Of a stretch of DNA of 64,000 nucleotides, positions 10,692 through 29,660 are shown in pieces (position 1 is the stretch's first letter; the number at the start of each line of letters is the position of its first letter). The translations under genes and the position numbers were made by a program. Under the pieces are notes generated by a model. It ran no database searches. It worked only from the letters and a program-made list of their open reading frames with translations, and was not told the DNA's origin. This DNA is from Spartobacteria bacterium (lineage in GTDB: Bacteria; Verrucomicrobiota; Verrucomicrobiia; Chthoniobacterales; UBA10450), in NCBI GenBank assembly GCA_003167365.1, contig PMTM01000006.1, forward strand, positions 144,391 through 208,390, given 5' to 3'.

Positions 10692-11909
10692 GTGTCATTT
10701 AACAATTTCGGACTTTCGCCGGAAGTCGTCCGCGGCACTCAGGCGATGGGTTTCACCGAACCGACGCCGATCCAGCTTCGCGCATTCCCAATTATTTTGG
10801 AGGGGAGGGACCTCATCGGTACCGCGCAAACTGGCACGGGCAAGACGGCCGCGTTCGCGTTGCCTATCCTCACTTTGCTTGCTAAGCACGGCGCGTTTCG
10901 TTGTCTTGTTATTGAACCGACGCGCGAACTCGCCGCGCAAGTTGAAACGGCGTTTCGCGATTATGGCCGCTTCACCGATCTGCACGTGACTGTCGTGCAC
11001 GGCGGCGTCGGCTACGGCAAACAGCGCGAAGACATCAAGCACGGCATGGACGTGGTCACCGCCACGCCGGGTCGTCTGCTTGATCACCTCGAGCAAGGCA
11101 CCATGAACCTGCGGCAGGTCAATATTCTCGTCCTCGACGAGGTCGACCGTATGCTCGACATGGGATTTTTGCCGGACGTGCGCCGAATCGTTAAGCAGAT
11201 TTCCACCGATCGACAAACTCTGCTTTTTTCCGCGACGTTGCCGCCGGAAATCGAACGGCTCTCGGCCTGGGTTCTGCGCGATCCGGAGCTGGTGGAAATT
11301 GGCGTGCGCCGTTCGCCTGCCGAAACCGTTACGCATGCGGTTTATCCGGTGGCTGGCGAACAAAAGTTCGATCTACTCATGGCGTTGCTCGAACGGACGA
11401 ATTACGACAGCGCTCTGATCTTTTCACGCACGAAGCACGGTGCCGATCGCATCGCTCACAAATTGAAACAGGGAAATCATTCGGTCGCCGTTCTGCATTC
11501 AAACCGCACGCAACGCGAACGCATTGAGGCGCTCGATGGATTCAAGAGCGGCAAATACGAAGTCATGGTCGCGACCGATATCGCCGCGCGCGGGCTCGAT
11601 ATCGCGGGTGTCAGTCACGTCATCAATTACGATGTGCCTGAGCATCCGGAAGATTATGTCCATCGCATCGGGCGCACCGGTCGCGCACAAAATGTGGGCG
11701 ATGCCTTCACCCTCATGAATGGCGAGGAAGTCGCCGCTCTCCAGGCGATCGAGCGTTTCATCGGGCGAAAAATTCCGCGGCTCAAGCTCGAGAATTTCCC
11801 GTACATGTACACCGTGCTTTTTGAGCCGGAATCCACCTCCGGAGGGAAACGCGCGATCGGCGGCGGCCGGACTCACCGCGGCTATTCCTTCGGGCGGCGA
11901 AAAAGGTAG
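10692..11909 (+). CDS. rhlE: DEAD-box RNA helicase, RhlE type
   Basis: ATP-dependent RNA helicase (405 residues), likely active in ribosome assembly or RNA turnover. All helicase motifs are visible: Q motif (GFTEPTPIQ), Walker A (AQTGTGKT), PTRELA, TPGR, motif II as DEVD, SAT (motif III), IFSRTKH, ATDIAARGLDIAG and HRIGRTGRA. Motif II reads DEVD rather than DEAD. After the helicase core a short Gly/Arg-rich tail (GGKRAIGGGRTHRGYSFGRRKR region) probably binds RNA. The start is GTG at 10692. The TAG stop is formed by the first bases of a GGTAGGGA repeat, so the natural C-terminus may have been altered. Confidence 0.93.
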   Translation: MSFNNFGLSPEVVRGTQAMGFTEPTPIQLRAFPIILEGRDLIGTAQTGTGKTAAFALPILTLLAKHGAFRCLVIEPTRELAAQVETAFRDYGRFTDLHVTVVHGGVGYGKQREDIKHGMDVVTATPGRLLDHLEQGTMNLRQVNILVLDEVDRMLDMGFLPDVRRIVKQISTDRQTLLFSATLPPEIERLSAWVLRDPELVEIGVRRSPAETVTHAVYPVAGEQKFDLLMALLERTNYDSALIFSRTKHGADRIAHKLKQGNHSVAVLHSNRTQRERIEALDGFKSGKYEVMVATDIAARGLDIAGVSHVINYDVPEHPEDYVHRIGRTGRAQNVGDAFTLMNGEEVAALQAIERFIGRKIPRLKLENFPYMYTVLFEPESTSGGKRAIGGGRTHRGYSFGRRKR

Positions 11910-12458: not shown

Positions 12459-12527
12459 GTTGTAGAGGCGCTTGTGCCAAGTGCCTAATCTTTTGGTTTC
12501 GGCGCTTGATACAAACGCCGCTACAAC
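12459..12527. repeat. TGTAGAGGCGC/GCGCCGCTACA palindromic repeat, copy A
   Basis: Starts GTTGTAGAGGCGCTTG and ends ACGCCGCTACAAC, inverted ends about 40 bases apart with TTTCGGCGCTTGATACAA before the right arm. Lies between two minus-strand genes. Related copies: 13963-14027, 14691-14760, 29591-29652, 33818-33872. Confidence 0.8.
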
Positions 12528-12531
12528 CTGC

Positions 12532-14673
12532 TCACTTCGCACACCACTGATCGACCCACTCGTTCACTGTTTTGTACCAAAGCCGGCTGTTCTGCGGCTT
12601 GAGCACCCAGTGGCCTTCATCCGGAAAATACAACATTTTCGATGGCACCTTCAACCGTTGCAAGGTGGTGAACAGATCGAACCCTTGCGACACGTCGAGT
12701 CGGTAATCGAGCTGGCCGTGGACCACCAAAGTCGGCGTCTTGAACTTGTCGGCGAACAAGTGCGGTGAGAATTTGCGGTAGAGCTCGCGCTGTTTCCACG
12801 GCGGGCCTTTGAATTCCCATTCCATGAACCAAAGTTCTTCCGTCGTTCCGTAAGAAGTTTCGGTGTTAAACGTCCCGTCGTGGGAGACGATGCACTTGAA
12901 GCGGTCAGTGTGTCCGAGCACCCAGTTCGCCATGTAACCGCCGTAGCTCGCGCCCAGCGCCGCCTCGCGGTTCTTGTCGATGAACGGATAAGTCTTCTCC
13001 ACGTAATCGAGCCCTTTCATCAGATCGACATACGGTTTGCCGCCCCAATCGCCACTGATCGAATCGATAAACTTCTGCCCGTAACCGGTCGAGCCATGGA
13101 AATTGATCATGACCACGACATAGCCGTTGGCCGCGAACAACTCCGCGTTCCAGCGATACGTCCACGAATTTCCCCACGCGCCTTGGGGTCCGCCATGGAT
13201 CAAAAACTTCAGCGGATATTTCTTTGCCGGATCGAATCCCGGCGGCTTGATAATGAATCCCTGCACGTCCTCGTTGTTCGCACCTTTGAACGTGAACGGC
13301 TCCAGCGGCTGCATGTCGATCCGCGATAGCAACGCGTCGTTCATGCGAGTGACTGGGATAACTACGGATTTGCCTGTCCCGCTCACCTCGATTCGCGCGA
13401 TTTCACTTGGCGCTTGAATCGACACGCGGCTAAAAAAAAGCGTCCGCCCGTCATTCGAAAAAACGAAATCATCCGCATGTGTTCGAGCGATGATCGCCGG
13501 CTCCTTCGCATCGAGCGGGAGCGCCCAGACAGGTGATTCGCCATTATCTTCGGCGCCAAAAAAAATCATCTTTGAATCCGGCGTCCATGCGAAACTTCCG
13601 ACAGAGCGGTCCCAATCCGCCGCAAGCGTGCGGCTTTGCCGGAGCTCGCGCTGATACACGACGAGCGATTCTTTGTCCGCCTCGAAACCGGCGCGCGCCA
13701 TCGATCGCCAGGCGATGTGCTTTCCGTCGGGTGAGTAAGCCGGTGTATTGTCATTACCCGGGCTGGTCGAAATTTTCTTCGGCACGCCACCGGCCATCGG
13801 CACGATGAAAATCTCGTTGTTCGTGCTGGTCGCTTCGACTTCGTCGATGTTGCTGGTGTAAGCGAGCTCCTGGCCGTCCGGCGAAATCGCGTACATGTCT
13901 TGACCGCCGAGATTGAATGGCGGCACATCGTGATCGCCCGGAGTGAGATCGCGGGGTTCTTGGTGTAGTGGCGGCTGTCTCAGCCGCATATCCGGATTAT
14001 TTGCGGGTGAGACACCCGCCTCTACACTTGCGTCCGCATCCGCGCTTACGGCAAACAAATGGCTGCGTTTGAATTCAGTGTAGGCGTTCCAGTGCCGGTA
14101 GAGGAGTTTCGTGAAAATTTTCGCTTTCACTTTGCTCTTCTTGAGTTCTTCGTCGCGGCGCTTGTTCTCGGCATCGTCCTTCGCCTCCGGATAAACTGAC
14201 GACACAAACACAATATTCTTTCCGTCCGGCGACCAGATCGCGCCATCCGCGCCGGTCGAGATGTTCGTGACTTGATGCGGCTGTCCATCCAATCCACCGC
14301 TTTCAGGCGTGAAATTCGACATCCAGATTTGCGTCGGATCGGTCGCCTTCGACGTCCAGATCAAGCGCTTGCCGTCCGGCGAAAAGCGCGGTCGTTCCTC
14401 GTGATTCGACGTCAAATTCAGCCGGCGCGCTTCGCCGCCGTTAGCCGGCACGATCCACAAATGCGAAATCTTCGTGTTCGCCTCGAGATCGACATCCACC
14501 GCCGCGAACACGACCCATTTTCCATCGGGCGACGGCACCGGTTCGCTCAAGCGCTTGAGCTTCATCATGTCTTCGAACGTGAACGGTCGTTTGCCGGAGG
14601 AGTTTTGCGGCGCGGGTTGCGCGACTGCAGCGGCAGCGAAAATGAAAATGACGGCGAAAAATCTTAGTTTCAT
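12532..14673 (-). CDS. Secreted S9-family peptidase (acylaminoacyl-peptidase/DPP-like)
   Basis: 713 residues: signal peptide (1-18), a WD40-like beta-propeller (about 30-430) with repeated SPDGK units, and a C-terminal alpha/beta hydrolase. The nucleophile elbow is GASYGGYMAN; the late GQLDYRLDV and PDEGHW segments supply the Asp and His. The family removes peptides or acyl-amino acids from short peptide N-termini in the periplasm. Residues about 216-237 are encoded by a palindromic repeat (13963-14027), seen as VEAGVSPANNPDM and RLRQPPLHQ, in a propeller loop. It is the first of three S9 peptidases within 9 kb. Confidence 0.93.
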   Translation of the reverse strand: MKLRFFAVIFIFAAAAVAQPAPQNSSGKRPFTFEDMMKLKRLSEPVPSPDGKWVVFAAVDVDLEANTKISHLWIVPANGGEARRLNLTSNHEERPRFSPDGKRLIWTSKATDPTQIWMSNFTPESGGLDGQPHQVTNISTGADGAIWSPDGKNIVFVSSVYPEAKDDAENKRRDEELKKSKVKAKIFTKLLYRHWNAYTEFKRSHLFAVSADADASVEAGVSPANNPDMRLRQPPLHQEPRDLTPGDHDVPPFNLGGQDMYAISPDGQELAYTSNIDEVEATSTNNEIFIVPMAGGVPKKISTSPGNDNTPAYSPDGKHIAWRSMARAGFEADKESLVVYQRELRQSRTLAADWDRSVGSFAWTPDSKMIFFGAEDNGESPVWALPLDAKEPAIIARTHADDFVFSNDGRTLFFSRVSIQAPSEIARIEVSGTGKSVVIPVTRMNDALLSRIDMQPLEPFTFKGANNEDVQGFIIKPPGFDPAKKYPLKFLIHGGPQGAWGNSWTYRWNAELFAANGYVVVMINFHGSTGYGQKFIDSISGDWGGKPYVDLMKGLDYVEKTYPFIDKNREAALGASYGGYMANWVLGHTDRFKCIVSHDGTFNTETSYGTTEELWFMEWEFKGPPWKQRELYRKFSPHLFADKFKTPTLVVHGQLDYRLDVSQGFDLFTTLQRLKVPSKMLYFPDEGHWVLKPQNSRLWYKTVNEWVDQWCAK
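13963..14027. repeat. Palindromic repeat inside the peptidase gene, copy C
   Basis: GTGTAGTGGCGGCTGTCTCAGCCGC on the left and GCGGGTGAGACACCCGCCTCTACAC on the right, with the same outer GTGTAG/CTACAC ends as the intergenic copies. The reading frame of the S9 peptidase stays open through it. Confidence 0.85.
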
Positions 14674-14690: not shown

Positions 14691-14760
14691 TTGTAGAGGC
14701 GCTCGCCCCGGCGAACGCCTTGTAATTAGTTTCGGCGCTTGATACAAGCGCCGCTACAAC
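14691..14760. repeat. Palindromic repeat, copy B
   Basis: TTGTAGAGGCGCTCG...TTTCGGCGCTTGATACAAGC then GCCGCTACAA; nearly the same right half as copy A. It fills the divergent promoter region between the S9 peptidase and the fusion gene. Confidence 0.85.
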
Positions 14761-14769
14761 AATCTGCTT

Positions 14770-17133
14770 ATGAAAACGCTGCTTTGTTTTATCCTTGTCG
14801 CTGTTGGGACACTAACTGTCTGCGCCGAGAAAATCGCACTTGTTGGTGGCACGCTGATCAATCCGGCAACTGAGCGAGTCATCACGAACGCGCGGATTTT
14901 GATCGACGGCGATCGCATTACCGATTTCGGAGATGGAATTACGACACCTGTCCCGAAAGGTGCGCGCGTCATCGATTGCAAAGGCAAATTCATTCTACCC
15001 GGCTATATCGACACACATGTTCACTTCTTCCAATCGGGCGGTCTCTTCACGCGACCGGACGTTGTCGATCTGACGAAGGTCCGGCCATATGCGGACGAGA
15101 TCGCATTGATCAAGAAAAATTTGCCCGACACGTTCGAGCGCTATTTGCGCAGCGGCATTACGTCGGTGATCGATGTGGGCGGGCCGTTTTGGAATTTCGA
15201 AGTCCGCAAGATCGCGAACTCGACGGCTAAAGCGCCGCGCGTTGCCGTGGCGGGTCCATTGATCTCAAGTGTCGCGCGACCGCAACTCGATCTCGGCGAT
15301 CCACCCATCGTCAAGATCGACAGTCCTGAAGAAGCGCAGGAGTTCGTTCGCAAGCTCGCGCTGCAAAATCCCGATCTGGTAAAGATTTGGTACATTGTCG
15401 ATAAAGATCATCCGGTCGACAGCTTCCGCCCGATCGTGCGCGCGACTGTCGAAGAAAGCCACGCTCACAAATTGCGTGTTGCCGTGCACGCGACTGAGCT
15501 GGAAACCGCGCGCGCCGCCGTCGAAGAAGGTGCGGACGTGCTCGTGCACAGCGTCACCGACAAGGAAGTCGACGATCGCTTCGTGCAGCTGTTGATAGAA
15601 AAGCACATTATCCTAACGCCGACGCTTGTCGTTTTCGAACGGTACGGACGCACGTTCGCAAACAAGTTGAATCTCACGCCAGAAGAGAAGGCGTGGGGCA
15701 ATCCGGAAGTGATTGCGACGCTCGATGTCACGAAACTGCCGCCAGATCAATTGCCCGACCGGATCAAGACCGCGCTGGCCAGTCCGGATGCCGTCCTCGA
15801 TCGGATCAAAAAGACGTACGACGTCGCGCTGAAGAATCTAAAAACGCTCGAGGATGCTAATGTGACCATCGCGGCCGGGACCGACGCGGGAAATATCGGC
15901 ACGATTCACGGCCCGGCGCTTTTCCGTGAATTTCAGTTGATGCGCGAAGCCGGGCTCACTCCGATGCAAATTCTTCAGTGCGCAACCGTCAATGCCGCTA
16001 AACTTTTCGGCGGAGAGACTGGCGCACATATTGGCAAGATCGACAATGGAAACTTCGCCGATCTCGTCATTCTGAAATCGAATCCGCTCGATGACGTCGC
16101 GAACGCATCCGACATCGAAAGCGTGATCAAGAACGGCATTCTCTATCCCGCTAGCTCGCTTGCGACCGCGCCTATGCAATCGCAAGCGAAGAGAATGAAG
16201 GCGATCGTGGTGCATGAGTACGGCGGGCCGGAGGTATTGAAGTATGAAGATGCCCCCGTGCCGGAGCCGAAGGAGAACGAAGTTCTGGTGCGCGTGATAG
16301 CCAGCGGCGTTAATCCAGCCGACCCGCTCATTGTCTCGGGCAAATACGCGAAAGAGTTTGGAACGCATCTGCCTCTGATTCCGGGATACGATATGGCGGG
16401 AATGGTCCAGAAAATCGGAGCCAAGGTTACCAAACTAAAAGTCGGCGATCCCGTTTACGCTTATCTGCTTTGGGGCGGAGGCTGGGCCGAGTATGCGGTC
16501 ACGACGGAGGGAGAGGCCGCGGTCAAACCGAAATCGCTTAGTTACACGGAAGCAGCAGCGGTTCCGCTGGCCGCGTTGACAGCATGGCAGGCGTTGATCG
16601 ATACCGCGAAGTTAAGCGCGGGCCAGACCGTTCTCATTCACGGTGGCTCAGGAGGCGTGGGAAGTTTTGCTATCCAGATTGCAAAGGCGCGGGGCGCCAA
16701 AGTGATCGCGACGGCTTCGACTGGCAATCAAGACTTGCTCAAACAACTGGGCGCGGACACGGCGATCGACTACACCAAGACAAAATTCGAAGACGTCGCG
16801 AAAGATGTCGATGTGGTGCTCGATCCGGTCGGGAAGGATACATTGGCGCGCTCTTACGGCGTCTTAAAAAAGGGCGGGATCGTCGTCACGCTGGTCGCAA
16901 GGATCGACCAGGCGGAACTCACTCAGCGCGGGATCCGTGGCGCATCGCTCTCATCCCATCCCGACGCGAACGAGCTCGCGCAGATCACGGCGTTAATCGA
17001 GGAGAAGAAGATCAAGCCGATCGTTTCGCAGGTGCTTCCGCTCACGGAGGCAGTGAAGGCGGATGAACAGGCCGAGACACATCACACGCGCGGTAAGATT
17101 GTGCTCAAAGTTGCTGAAGAGCCGAAGATCTGA
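14770..17133 (+). CDS. Fusion: exported amidohydrolase + quinone oxidoreductase (MDR)
   Basis: 787 residues. A signal peptide (1-19) precedes a metal-dependent amidohydrolase of the imidazolonepropionase/prolidase-like group (about 20-470): DTHVH near residue 81, VAVHATE, VLVHS and AAGTDAG provide metal ligands. From residue 476 (MKAIVVHEYGGPEVL) a full zinc-independent medium-chain dehydrogenase of the quinone oxidoreductase type follows, with GYDMAG, the Rossmann GGSGGVG loop and a C-terminal GKIVL. Each half is of normal single-protein length. An ATG at 16195 with a weak GAAGAG upstream could allow separate expression of the second half, which would then be cytosolic. I know of no standard family with this architecture. 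Confidence 0.88.
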   Translation: MKTLLCFILVAVGTLTVCAEKIALVGGTLINPATERVITNARILIDGDRITDFGDGITTPVPKGARVIDCKGKFILPGYIDTHVHFFQSGGLFTRPDVVDLTKVRPYADEIALIKKNLPDTFERYLRSGITSVIDVGGPFWNFEVRKIANSTAKAPRVAVAGPLISSVARPQLDLGDPPIVKIDSPEEAQEFVRKLALQNPDLVKIWYIVDKDHPVDSFRPIVRATVEESHAHKLRVAVHATELETARAAVEEGADVLVHSVTDKEVDDRFVQLLIEKHIILTPTLVVFERYGRTFANKLNLTPEEKAWGNPEVIATLDVTKLPPDQLPDRIKTALASPDAVLDRIKKTYDVALKNLKTLEDANVTIAAGTDAGNIGTIHGPALFREFQLMREAGLTPMQILQCATVNAAKLFGGETGAHIGKIDNGNFADLVILKSNPLDDVANASDIESVIKNGILYPASSLATAPMQSQAKRMKAIVVHEYGGPEVLKYEDAPVPEPKENEVLVRVIASGVNPADPLIVSGKYAKEFGTHLPLIPGYDMAGMVQKIGAKVTKLKVGDPVYAYLLWGGGWAEYAVTTEGEAAVKPKSLSYTEAAAVPLAALTAWQALIDTAKLSAGQTVLIHGGSGGVGSFAIQIAKARGAKVIATASTGNQDLLKQLGADTAIDYTKTKFEDVAKDVDVVLDPVGKDTLARSYGVLKKGGIVVTLVARIDQAELTQRGIRGASLSSHPDANELAQITALIEEKKIKPIVSQVLPLTEAVKADEQAETHHTRGKIVLKVAEEPKI

Positions 17134-19361: not shown

Positions 19362-19383
19362 TCTCGATCGCGGACCGATAGTT

Positions 19384-19462
19384 GAGACTCGCAGGCGACA
19401 CGCCTGCCCCTACACCTGCTGTCATTCCGGGACGCGAGGAACCTCTCAAAATCTCGCCCCAT
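19384..19462. repeat. Composite intergenic repeat
   Basis: GCAGGCGACACGCCTGC hairpin followed by CCCTACACC and a GTCATTCCGGGACGCGAGG arm. It resembles half copies of the TGTAG and TGTCATCC repeat families joined together. Nothing else is seen in the 165-base gap. Confidence 0.55.
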
Positions 19463-19526
19463 TTTACGCAATCGCTGACTTCCCAATCATCGGATGTTCG
19501 GCTAGATCTTTCTGCCACTTGCTCTT

Positions 19527-21614
19527 ATGAAACACGCACGATTCGTCGTTCTTCTTTTATTATTCGCCGCTTCCAGTGCATTTTCCGCGAGTCCGTCACC
19601 GGCTCCCGCGGTCACAGCCCCCATCATCACGCCGCCGCCGACACCACCGCCGCAGCGGACGTTGAAGCCCGAAGATTACGCGCAGCTCCGCGATGTGGAC
19701 GAGCCGAACATTTCGCCCGACGGCAACTCCGTCGTCTATGTCGTGAAGAAAGCCGACATGGAGAAAGACAAACTTCCCGGCAACCTTTGGTTGGCGAAGT
19801 GGGACGGCTCGGAGAATCGCGCTCTGACTTACGGGAACAAAAGCCAGTCACATCCGCGCTGGAGTCCGGATGGAAAATGGATCGCGTTTCTTTCCGGCCG
19901 CGAGGACGAAAACGAAGTTGATCAGCTCTGGATCATGTCGAGCAGCGGCGGCGAAGCGCAAAAGTTCACCGACCTGAAAGGGAACGTCGATGACTTCGCT
20001 TGGTCGCCCGATTCAAAGCGCATTGTGCTCGTTGTGCACGATCCCGACCCGCGCGAGCCGGAGAAGAAGGAAAAAGAGAAGAAGACCGTTCCACCGATCG
20101 TCATCGATCGTTTCTTCTTCAAGCACGACATCGACGGCTATCTGATCGATCGCTGGTCGCACCTGCAACTGCTCGATCTCGCGACGCGCAAGATCGACGT
20201 CATCACCTCGGGCAAACATGATGAATTTCTGCCGGCCTGGTCGCCCGATGGAAACGAGATCGCGTTTGTGACCAAGCGCGGCGACGACCCGGATCGCACA
20301 GAGAATTGGGACGTTTACGTGATCGGCGCGCAGCCGGGCGCGAAAGAGCGTCAGGTCACCACGTCGCCTGAGGCCGATCCGCATCCCGATTTAGAAAGCG
20401 CGCCGGCTTGGAGCCCTGACGGAAAAACGATCGCTTACATCCACGGCGGCGATCCGAAGAAGATCGAATACGCCGTTCATACACTCGCAATTATTCCGGC
20501 GGCGGGTGGCGAAGCCAAAGTACTGACGCAAAACCTCGATCGCAACGTCGAGCAGCCGCATTGGTCGCCCGACAGCAAATCGGTCTTTGTTGTTTTGGAA
20601 GATGACGGCGCGAAAACGCTCGTGCGCGTTCCCATCGCCGGCGGCGCGCCCGAAACTGTGGTCGGCGGCCGGCGCAGTGTCGCCGGCTACGACGTGAGCA
20701 AGAACGGGAAAGTGATCGTGCGCGCGAGCACGCCGGACAGTCCGTATGAAATTTTCGCGACGGAGAAAAACAATCTGCGCGATCTGACGAAGCAAAACGA
20801 CGCTTGGCTCCTCACGATTAGACTCGGACGCTTCGAAGAAACGAAATTCAAAAGCAAAGACGGCACCGAAATTCACGGTTTTGTCGTTCGCCCTGTCGAT
20901 CCTGCCGCGGGCGCCAAACCGCCCGCGTTGCTGCGTCCGCACGGTGGTCCGCAATCGCAATATGCGAACGAGTTCAGTTTCGAGGCGCAACTTTTCGCCG
21001 CAAACGGTTACGCGGTCATCATGCCGAACCCGCGCGGCTCGACCGGGCGCGGCGAAAAATTCGCCATGGGCATTTTTGCCGCCTGGGGAAGTGTGGATGT
21101 CGAAGATGATCTCGCCGCGGTGGACGACGCGGTCGCGCGCGGCCTGGCCGATCCCGATCGTCTCGGCGTGGGCGGTTGGAGTTACGGCGGCATTTCGACC
21201 AACTATCTCATCGCCAGCACCACGCGTTTCAAAGCGGCCACCAGCGGCGCGTCGATATCGAACGTGCTCGCGGGCTACGGCACCGATCAATACATTATCG
21301 ATTACGAAGCCGAGCTCGGCCTCCCGTGGAAAAACATTGAGACGTGGACGCGCATTTCCTATCCGTTCCTGCACGCCGACCGGATCAAGACGCCCACGCT
21401 ATTCCTGTGCGGTCAGGACGACTTCAACGTGCCGTTGCTCAACACCGAGCAGATGTATCAAGCCTTGCGCAGCCTCAATGTGCCGACCGAGCTGGTAATT
21501 TATCCCGGCCAATTCCATCGGCTCAAGAAGCCGAGCTACATCATCGACCGCTACAAACGCTATCTCGCTTGGTATGCGAAGTGGATAGGACTGACCGGCG
21601 CCGCGTCCAAGTAG
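19527..21614 (+). CDS. Secreted S9-family peptidase (acylaminoacyl-peptidase-like)
   Basis: 695 residues: signal peptide (1-21), a Pro/Thr-rich spacer (22-47), a TolB-like propeller with repeated SPDGK/SPDSK units (about 55-400) and an alpha/beta hydrolase domain. The nucleophile motif is GWSYGGISTN; CGQDDFNVP carries the Asp and GQFHRL the His. HGGPQSQYANEF forms the oxyanion-side loop. It is a paralogue in plan, not a close copy, of the peptidase at 12532-14673. The cluster suggests periplasmic use of peptides as nutrients. Confidence 0.95.
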   Translation: MKHARFVVLLLLFAASSAFSASPSPAPAVTAPIITPPPTPPPQRTLKPEDYAQLRDVDEPNISPDGNSVVYVVKKADMEKDKLPGNLWLAKWDGSENRALTYGNKSQSHPRWSPDGKWIAFLSGREDENEVDQLWIMSSSGGEAQKFTDLKGNVDDFAWSPDSKRIVLVVHDPDPREPEKKEKEKKTVPPIVIDRFFFKHDIDGYLIDRWSHLQLLDLATRKIDVITSGKHDEFLPAWSPDGNEIAFVTKRGDDPDRTENWDVYVIGAQPGAKERQVTTSPEADPHPDLESAPAWSPDGKTIAYIHGGDPKKIEYAVHTLAIIPAAGGEAKVLTQNLDRNVEQPHWSPDSKSVFVVLEDDGAKTLVRVPIAGGAPETVVGGRRSVAGYDVSKNGKVIVRASTPDSPYEIFATEKNNLRDLTKQNDAWLLTIRLGRFEETKFKSKDGTEIHGFVVRPVDPAAGAKPPALLRPHGGPQSQYANEFSFEAQLFAANGYAVIMPNPRGSTGRGEKFAMGIFAAWGSVDVEDDLAAVDDAVARGLADPDRLGVGGWSYGGISTNYLIASTTRFKAATSGASISNVLAGYGTDQYIIDYEAELGLPWKNIETWTRISYPFLHADRIKTPTLFLCGQDDFNVPLLNTEQMYQALRSLNVPTELVIYPGQFHRLKKPSYIIDRYKRYLAWYAKWIGLTGAASK

Positions 21615-26658: not shown

Positions 26659-26729
26659 TTAGACAGGATTAACTGAATTTTCAGGATTTGTTCTTTTGTA
26701 ATCCTGTCCATCCTGTAAATCCTGTCTAA
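26659..26729. repeat. Palindromic repeat TTAGACAGGATT/AATCCTGTCTAA
   Basis: Left arm TTAGACAGGATTAACTGAATT, right arm CCTGTAAATCCTGTCTAA, forming a long imperfect stem just before treY. Confidence 0.75.
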
Positions 26730-26744
26730 ACTTTCTTCACTTTC

Positions 26745-29609
26745 GTGAAGATCGAACATCCGCGCATTCCCAGTTGCACTTACCGATTGCAATTCAACCG
26801 GCAGTTCCGGTTCACGCACGCGCGTGAAATCACTGCGTACTTGCATGAACTCGGTGTCAGCGATGCTTACGCCTCTCCGTATTTCCAGGCGCGCGCGGAA
26901 AGTTTGCACGGCTACGACATCACCGATCACAACAAACTCAACGCCGCGATCGGTTCGCGTGAGGAGTATGACGCATGGATCGACGAACTGCGCGCACACG
27001 GGATGGGACAGATTCTCGATTTTGTCCCGAACCACATGGGCATCGCCGAACCGCTCAACGAATGGTGGATGGACGTGCTCGAGAACGGCCCGAGCTCGAT
27101 GTATGCGCCGTACTTCGACATCGATTGGCATCCGCTCAAATCCGATCTGCACGAGAAAGTGTTGCTGCCGATTTTGGGCGAACAATACGGACGCGTGCTC
27201 GAGCGCGGTGAACTTCAGATGCATTTCGAGGCCGGCGCTTTTTATCTCTGCTATTACAATCACAAGCTGCCGATCGCGCCCGGCACTTACCGCTACGTTC
27301 TCGAGATCGCGCTGGAGAGTCTCGCCGAATACAAGGACGAAGAATTCTACGCGGAGTTCCAGAGTATCCTGACCGCGCTGGAATACTTGCCGAGGCGCAC
27401 TGAAACCGATCTCGATCGAATCGCCGAGCGGACGCGCGAAAAAGAAATCGTGAAGCGCCGATTGGAGCGGCGTTGCGAAGAAGAACCGCGCGTGCAGCAG
27501 GCAATCGAGAAAGCGCTTCGGCAAATCAATGGACACGCCGGTGATCCGCGCAGTTTCGACACACTCGACGAGATGTTAAATGCGCAATCGTACCGTCTCG
27601 CTTTCTGGCGGGTAGCGGCGGAGGAAATCAACTACCGGCGGTTTTTTGATGTCAATGATCTGGCGGCGATACGCATGGAGTTGCCGGAGGTTTTCGATGC
27701 AACGCACAAACTACTTCTCGATCTTGTCAAAGCCGGCGCCGTGACCGGACTGCGGATCGATCATCCGGACGGACTTTATTTGCCGCAGCAATATTTTGAA
27801 AAACTGCAACGCCGCTGCGCGAAAGGCCTTGGGATTCCGCTTCCGAAAGATGGCCGCGCGATCTACATGATCGTGGAAAAAATTCTCACTGACGACGAAA
27901 CATTGCCGAAGGAATGGCCGGTCCATGGAACGACCGGTTACGATTTCGCGAATCAAGTGACGCAGCTGCTGGTCGATTCGTCAGCCGAGGCCGCAATCAC
28001 GAAAGCATTTCGGTGGTTTGTTGGTCACACGCTTCATTTCGGACATCTGGTTTACGCGAAGAAACGTCAGGTGATGCGACTGGCGCTGGCCAACGACGTG
28101 AACGTTCTCGGCAGCATGGTCGACCGGCTGTCGGAACAGAACCGCTGGTATCGCGATTTCACTTTGCAGGCGCTCGCTCGCGCCGTGCGCGAAACGATTG
28201 CGTGCTTTCCGGTGTATCGGACCTATCTCGCCCCGGATCGTCCCGTAACTGAAGAAGATCAACAAGTGGTCGAGCGCGCGATCAATGCGGCGAAACGGCG
28301 CAATCCGGGAATCGAAGAGTCAGTTTTTAATTTCCTGCGCGACATTTTGCTCTTTCGTTTTCCTGAGAATTTGGATGAGGAAGCGCGCAAGGCGCACGCG
28401 CACTTTGTTCTAAAGTTTCAGCAAGCAACCGGGCCGGTTATGGCAAAGGGTCTCGAGGACACCGTGTTTTACATTTTCAATCGACTGGTCGCGTTAAACG
28501 AAGTCGGCGGCGAGCCGCAGCAATTTGGGATTGGTGTCGAAACATTCCATCAACGCAATCAAGATCGACACCGTGATTGGCCGGCGAGTCTGCTCGCCAC
28601 TTCCACGCACGACACGAAACGCAGCGAAGACGTGCGCGCGCGCATGGTAGCGATTTCCGAAATCCCTCAGCTCTGGCGTCGGTCGATTCAGCGCTGGCGT
28701 TTCGTCAATCGCCGGTGGAAAAAGCGCATCGACGAATCGCAGGCGCCGGACGCAAGCGAAGAGTATCTGCTCTACCAAACTTTGCTCGGCACCTGGCCGG
28801 TAAATGTGCGCGGTGAAGCCGAGCAAACCGTGGACGCGGAGTACGTCGAGCGCATTCAGGCCTATATGGCCAAGGCCCTGAACGAAGCGAAGCTGAACAC
28901 GAGCTGGATTCAACCGAACGAACAGTGGCTCGCGGCCGTGCGCGATTTCATCGCCAGAATTTTGGAGCCGTCGGCGAAGAACAAATTTCTTCCGGCTTTT
29001 TGTCCCGTCGTCGACGAGGTCGCCCCCCTCGGAACAATCAATTCGCTCTCGCAGACTTTGCTCAAACTGACGTCGCCGGGCGTTCCGGATATTTACCAGG
29101 GCAACGAGGTTTGGAATTTTTCGGTCGTCGATCCCGATAATCGCCGGCCGGTTGACTACGAATGCAGTCGGAAAAAACTCGCTTCACTTGAAGAAGCGAA
29201 GCCGGAAGAGTTTTGGCAAAATTGGCCGGATGGCCGGATCAAAATGTTTCTTACGCAGCGGCTACTGAATTTCCGGCGCAAACATGCCGATCTCTTCCAG
29301 CGCGGAAATTATTTTCCAATCGCGTCGAGCGGAACTTTTGCCGATTGTTGCGTCAGTTTTGCACGCGAGCTAAATGGCGAGTGGATTGCCGTGATCGCGC
29401 CGCGGCTCTCCTCGCGAATCGGTTTTCCGCCGCTTGGCGAAAAATGGAAAGATACAGTTATCGATCTTCCGGAATCGCTTTCGCTTGAAAACGTGCGCGA
29501 CATTCTCACGGGACGCGAAGCTCATTTCGAAGGCCGACGATTAGCGATCGCCGCGGCATTGTCGATCTTGCCGTTCGCAGCGGTGACGAACTGTAGCGGC
29601 GGTCTATGA
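26745..29609 (+). CDS. treY: Malto-oligosyltrehalose synthase TreY
   Basis: GH13 enzyme (954 residues) that isomerises the reducing-end linkage of maltodextrins to give maltooligosyl trehalose, the first step of the TreY-TreZ route to trehalose. The N-terminal [50 protein letters not shown] and the C-terminal [10 protein letters not shown] motifs are diagnostic. The start is GTG at 26745. The final residues CSGGL and the stop are encoded by a palindromic repeat (29591-29652), so the native C-terminus has probably been replaced. treZ is not nearby. Confidence 0.96.
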
Positions 29610-29652
29610 CCGCCGTTCTTTTAGTTTCGGCTCTCACAGAGCGCCGCTACAG
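29591..29652. repeat. Palindromic repeat, copy D, overlapping the treY end
   Basis: CTGTAGCGGCGGTCTATGACCGCCG on the left, GAGCGCCGCTACAG on the right. The TGA in its left half is the treY stop codon. Confidence 0.8.
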
Positions 29653-29660
29653 AAGAAATT

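Follow-up and report, generated by a model that had tools for sequence, protein, structure and literature searches.

In-frame GTAG-type palindromic repeats at recurrent loop sites of an S9 peptidase and other conserved proteins of Chthoniobacterales

An S9 peptidase gene of a Chthoniobacterales genome carries, within its reading frame, a 65-nt palindromic unit that is a REPIN, a head-to-head dimer of GTAG REP sequences according to the published architecture (PMC3116915; PMC3733652). The comparison with related genomes makes it very probable that REPINs have been inserted in frame repeatedly into permissive protein loops in this lineage, in a process that is probably driven by REP-associated tyrosine transposases (RAYTs) and roughly neutral for the host.

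Architecture of the element

The unit is located at positions 13963-14027 of the window, which here denotes the whole 64,000-nt stretch of DNA analysed, and its full sequence is GTGTAGTGGCGGCTGTCTCAGCCGC-ATATCCGGATTATTT-GCGGGTGAGACACCCGCCTCTACAC. Read directly from the sequence, it has the length of 65 bases and the perfect GTGTAG and CTACAC ends that the initial annotation had described. The core of the unstranded doublet, 61 nt from GTAG to CTAC (13965-14025), comprises a first REP half, GTAGTGGCGGCTGTCTCAGCCGC (13965..13987, plus strand), a 15-nt spacer (13988-14002) and an inverted second half, GTAGAGGCGGGTGTCTCACCCGC (14003..14025, minus strand). Each half consists of an unpaired GTAG tag beside a short, G+C-rich stem-loop with a 7-bp stem. 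As single-stranded DNA the complete unit folds into one hairpin (-25.7 kcal/mol; shuffle mean: -9.3; z: -7.2), and 0/200 shuffled sequences folded as well. An identity as a known RNA was rejected, with no Rfam match between window positions 11500 and 15500.

The host gene and the translated insert

The host gene (12532..14673, minus strand) encodes a Dpp5-like S9 peptidase of 713 amino acids with matches to Peptidase_S9 (PF00326) and the PD40 propeller, Dpp5 being its best NCBIfam relative at a score below the cutoff of that model. The enzyme has a probable signal peptide and is probably secreted. The repeat lies wholly inside this open reading frame (ORF) and is free of stop codons, and the coding strand reads through it in frame as VEAGVSPANNPDMRLRQPPLH, adding about 22 residues (about 217-237). 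The protein would be produced with this segment.

In an AlphaFold2 model derived from 27 sequences (mean pLDDT: 74), residues 218-237 have pLDDT values below 50, which may partly come from missing aligned sequences at the insert. They are preceded by a strand at residues 203-210 and followed by a short one at 241-242. With these low values between two strands, the insert forms a propeller loop that is probably disordered. Among solved S9 peptidases the nearest is 8wt1, whose alignment with the window protein does not extend through the insert loop. The stop-free ORF and the low-confidence loop between propeller strands bear out the initial reading of the repeat as a coding segment of some 22 residues in a propeller loop. 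A neighboring ORF of the window (14770-17133, plus strand; 787 amino acids) encodes an amidohydrolase-like part joined to a downstream part resembling a quinone-oxidoreductase-like alcohol dehydrogenase, an arrangement that, judged from the translation only, represents either an unusual fusion or the loss of a stop codon.

Distribution of the repeat family

The REP half has 15 exact matches in the 3.13-Mb genome and 35 matches at two or fewer mismatches, dispersed over many contigs, against one match of the reversed control. The coding segment thus has DNA counterparts among the dispersed repeats. A broader REP pattern occurs 33 times in this genome, versus none for the control, and is present in 74/81 family genomes. 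The outer GGTGTAG and CTACACC bases are common to many of the genomic copies, and further copies of the exact subfamily, with these ends, are found outside the window.

Two GTAG doublets with TTGTAG ends, related to the coding repeat but not identical to it, lie next to the peptidase gene, one at its 3′ side (12460-12526) and one just upstream of its start (14691-14759), the latter containing a 35-nt stretch that shares 94% identity with the former. A further REPIN, of the GTAGCGGCGGTCTATGACCGCCG type, is found at the 3′ end of a long ORF (29590-29653). These three unstranded doublets belong to sister subfamilies (e.g. stem GGCGCTTG), and as such the initial assignment of the coding repeat to the same family as the gene-junction copies holds for the GTAG doublet form but not for the exact subfamily. 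A single REP, GTAGGGGCAGGCGTGTCGCCTGC (19391..19413, minus strand), is located between two long ORFs and overlaps the predicted 5′ end of ORF 19382-19921. The window also contains a 30-nt inverted repeat pair, TTAGACAGGATTAACTGAATTTTCAGGATT (26659-26729), unrelated to the REP family.

A search for further in-gene copies, counted from individual loci, covered 29 distinct sites of the subfamily. By a crude count from ORFs, approximately 25 of the 29 lie outside any recognisable conserved gene, while four are clear interior copies, found in rho, purL and an Amuc_1100-like pilus gene besides the S9 peptidase. At another locus (L022:1501-1504), a shikimate-dehydrogenase-like gene ends with a TAG stop codon contained in a GTAG tag, a situation already described for REPs elsewhere.

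The peptidase loop among relatives

Orthologs were collected from up to 80 family genomes, together with named records, and aligned; the relatives are members of the Chthoniobacterales (Verrucomicrobiota), many of them represented by fragmented MAGs. Among 37 orthologs, the peptidase loop is either empty or occupied by one of about a dozen different palindromic repeats, all of which are in frame. The interval between the KRSHLF and RDLTP motifs spans 33-34 residues in the window protein and 10 to 19 residues in nine family orthologs that have no palindrome (e.g. AVSADADASQPNSA). The closest orthologs have a loop without the segment, which is therefore not conserved throughout the orthologs, and unrelated palindromic inserts are found in the loops of the orthologs other than those nine (GTAGGGCGAGACTCTGTCGAGCC, GTAGAGGCAGGCGTGTCGCCTGC, GTAGCGGCCGTTGTCTCAACGGCC, CACAGACATCTTGTCTGTGGGG and more). 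The DNA of loops with long inserts folds strongly (mean z: -4.8) compared with control segments of the same genes (-0.2).

The peptidase tree was built from the protein without the loop. With insert types labelled by eye, 17 changes of type are needed on this tree, and the empty state requires five changes, all forced by well-supported (starred) branches, where the empty or filled call for borderline loops (e.g. L062, L065, L098) is a matter of judgement. Within the clade of the window gene (n = 13), eight genes have an empty loop, and inserts of other types fill the remaining four. One clade keeps a single type, that of the CACAGACATC group.

Several inserts correspond to repeats resident in their own genomes. 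The GTAGGGCGAGACTC type, which is the type carried by the G006 ortholog itself, occurs in 74 copies in genome G006 and in 28 copies in G028, whose peptidase loops contain this type or one of its variants, and is absent from the genome of the window. The CACAGACATC pattern is low-copy, and the correspondence between insert and abundant resident repeat therefore holds for the GTAGGGCGAGACTC and window types rather than for all. The 5′ tags of the simple GTAG doublets in the peptidase loop share a single reading phase (GTA-G), which could hint at in-place replacement or common ancestry for some of them, while the CACAGACATC group uses the other stop-free phase. At the peptidase and PurL sites, the coding-strand tags never occur in the phase in which TAG would be read as a stop codon.

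Recurrent sites in PurL, Rho and the peptidase

Family comparisons of two further proteins gave a similar picture. The PurL loop preceding FNESQSR and the N-terminal linker of Rho are each empty in some relatives and occupied by various GTAG or other palindromes in others. The DNA of the PurL-site inserts again folds well (z: -3.6; control: -0.1), and both stop-free tag phases are used at this site, several inserts being in a different phase from that of the simple peptidase doublets. A second peptidase loop, following NNEIFIVPM, contains palindromic inserts in two relatives (L238, L241).

In the Rho linkers of L208 and the family orthologs L209-L237, REP-derived segments of different types are found, in some species with several in tandem, and most of these Chthoniobacterales genomes contain a second Rho paralog. 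A second PurL loop (IILVG...LGGSRFLKV; L178-L207) also varies in length, and many relatives have REP-like peptide segments there, AGVGDPG being one example.

RAYT transposases and mobility

Two Y1 transposases, L001 and L002, score above the NCBIfam cutoff for REP-associated tyrosine transposases (101 and 92 bits; cutoff: 80). GTAG hairpins lie on both sides of each gene, in the usual RAYT arrangement. At L002, the flanking REPs (GTAGTGGCAGGCGTGTCGCCTGC) represent a sister type to the window element, and those flanking the other RAYT gene are of another GTAG type; neither of the two RAYTs checked in the genome is flanked by exactly the window subfamily. A RAYT is nevertheless the most likely mover of the window REPIN.

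Compared with its empty relatives, the window peptidase gene is 57 nt longer, with no visible target-site duplication and a few target bases missing. Y1/HUH single-strand transposition is known for IS200/IS605, and the lack of a duplication together with the small loss of target bases, as read from the alignment, fits this mechanism without proving it. The presence or absence of the insert on the tree and the two REP-flanked RAYT genes lend support to the initial suggestion that the repeat is, or was, mobile.

Origin and persistence of the inserts

We propose that a GTAG REPIN, of a family dispersed in this genome, would have entered the S9 peptidase gene as a non-autonomous element that a REP-associated Y1 (HUH) tyrosine transposase moved through a single-stranded intermediate. 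Insertion without a visible target-site duplication and with a small net loss of target bases would account for a gene that has grown by 57 nt and kept its frame, the product being a hairpin loop, probably disordered, that lies between two strands of the propeller. Tolerance of extra residues in the loop and the availability of stop-free frames in the element may explain why such an insert persists, and it would survive only where both residues and frame are tolerated. Different REP families would in this way repeatedly fill both peptidase loops, the PurL loop and the N-terminal linker of Rho, the same sites being reused since insertions there survive selection and REPINs are in plentiful supply; with this high supply and few permissive loops, insertion would recur.

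The main rival to this proposal is a single ancient insertion that was later replaced in place, through gene conversion or recombination among REPINs, or that diverged by compensatory change, with the empty loops arising by deletion. All the cases do lie in the same loop, the simple doublets at this site have their 5′ tag phase in common, and one clade has retained the single CACAGACATC type, as common descent would predict. However, the stems and lengths of the inserts are unrelated and correspond to distinct families of repeats in the genomes that carry them, empty loops are nested among filled ones on starred branches, and both the CACAGACATC group in the peptidase and several PurL inserts are in the other stop-free phase. 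The evidence thus speaks against in-place replacement of one ancestral insert as a general rule, and we consider this history improbable, with independent insertion the better reading of the individual cases.

Repeated insertion need not be neutral, and the strong coding-strand hairpins in many orthologs and the finding that the same loops of core genes were filled again and again would also be expected if positive selection kept the insert, whether through slower translation or adjusted mRNA stability caused by the hairpin, or through a change in substrate access caused by the peptide. Many orthologs, however, do without an insert, and the sequences and lengths of those present are unrelated. 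Furthermore, in Rickettsia Gmk a palindromic element is described as having a neutral to slightly detrimental effect (Abergel et al. 2006, as cited in PMC2229807). We therefore regard such selection as more doubtful still than replacement in place. The loop varies in length even in Acidobacteria, as might be seen if the palindrome had arisen by chance in an ordinary variable loop with no mobile element involved, but the genome-wide copies with exact tags and stems, the shuffled sequences and the control segments of the same genes, which have no such folds, leave this reading with a negligible chance, and it was rejected.

Beyond the recurrent insertion of REPINs, we tentatively suggest that certain loops of conserved proteins may serve as long-term landing sites in the Chthoniobacterales, at which unrelated REPINs are inserted, lost and exchanged, possibly including a site-specific replacement of one REPIN by another. 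The REP/RAYT system could thereby go on supplying core enzymes with new peptide segments and their genes with coding-strand hairpins.

Comparison with known systems

Di Nocera et al. 2013 (PMC3733652) reported intragenic GTAG REPs from several phyla, Opitutus terrae, a verrucomicrobium, contributing the most, and the window element therefore belongs to a known kind. The intragenic dimers in that study encode 20-30 residues, and different REPs occur at about the same site of Xanthomonas recB (PMC3733652). The present elements share the tag, stem-loop, head-to-head dimers, ORF insertions of this length, tag-supplied stop codons and RAYT association with those REPs, but they differ in host order and REP sequence, and about a dozen types reuse one site across a family, in parallel in PurL, Rho and the S9 peptidase. 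The scale of this reuse of one site by unrelated repeats is unusual and exceeds what a search of the open-licence literature brought up. The REPINs and RAYTs of Pseudomonas fluorescens SBW25 (Bertels and Rainey 2011, PMC3116915) likewise comprise dispersed inverted doublets that form one hairpin, and REP-flanked RAYT genes. Those REPINs were, however, studied in extragenic space, whereas interior coding copies are found here, at a much lower copy number (tens).

The initial annotation had likened the repeat to the Rickettsia palindromic elements (RPEs), in an unrelated lineage. The likeness stands for the mode of action, RPEs also being palindromic repeats in frame within conserved protein genes, at solvent-exposed positions and with different elements at the same ortholog site (PMC3767692). 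Membership was rejected, as a GTAG REP doublet of 65 nt contrasts with elements of about 100-150 bp (PMC3767692) that have another sequence and no known RAYT association and form a separate family. The host is indeed not Rickettsia, but occurrence outside that genus is not new, given the intragenic GTAG REPs already described (PMC3733652). Work on Rickettsia did not decide whether different RPEs at one ortholog site indicate a hot spot or one diverged insert (PMC3767692). The peptidase, PurL and Rho loops make this question directly testable, and the finding of about a dozen unrelated REP types, alongside empty neighbors, on a well-supported tree, echoed in PurL and Rho, favors hot spots, at which REP/RAYT elements are seen to feed new segments into core proteins.
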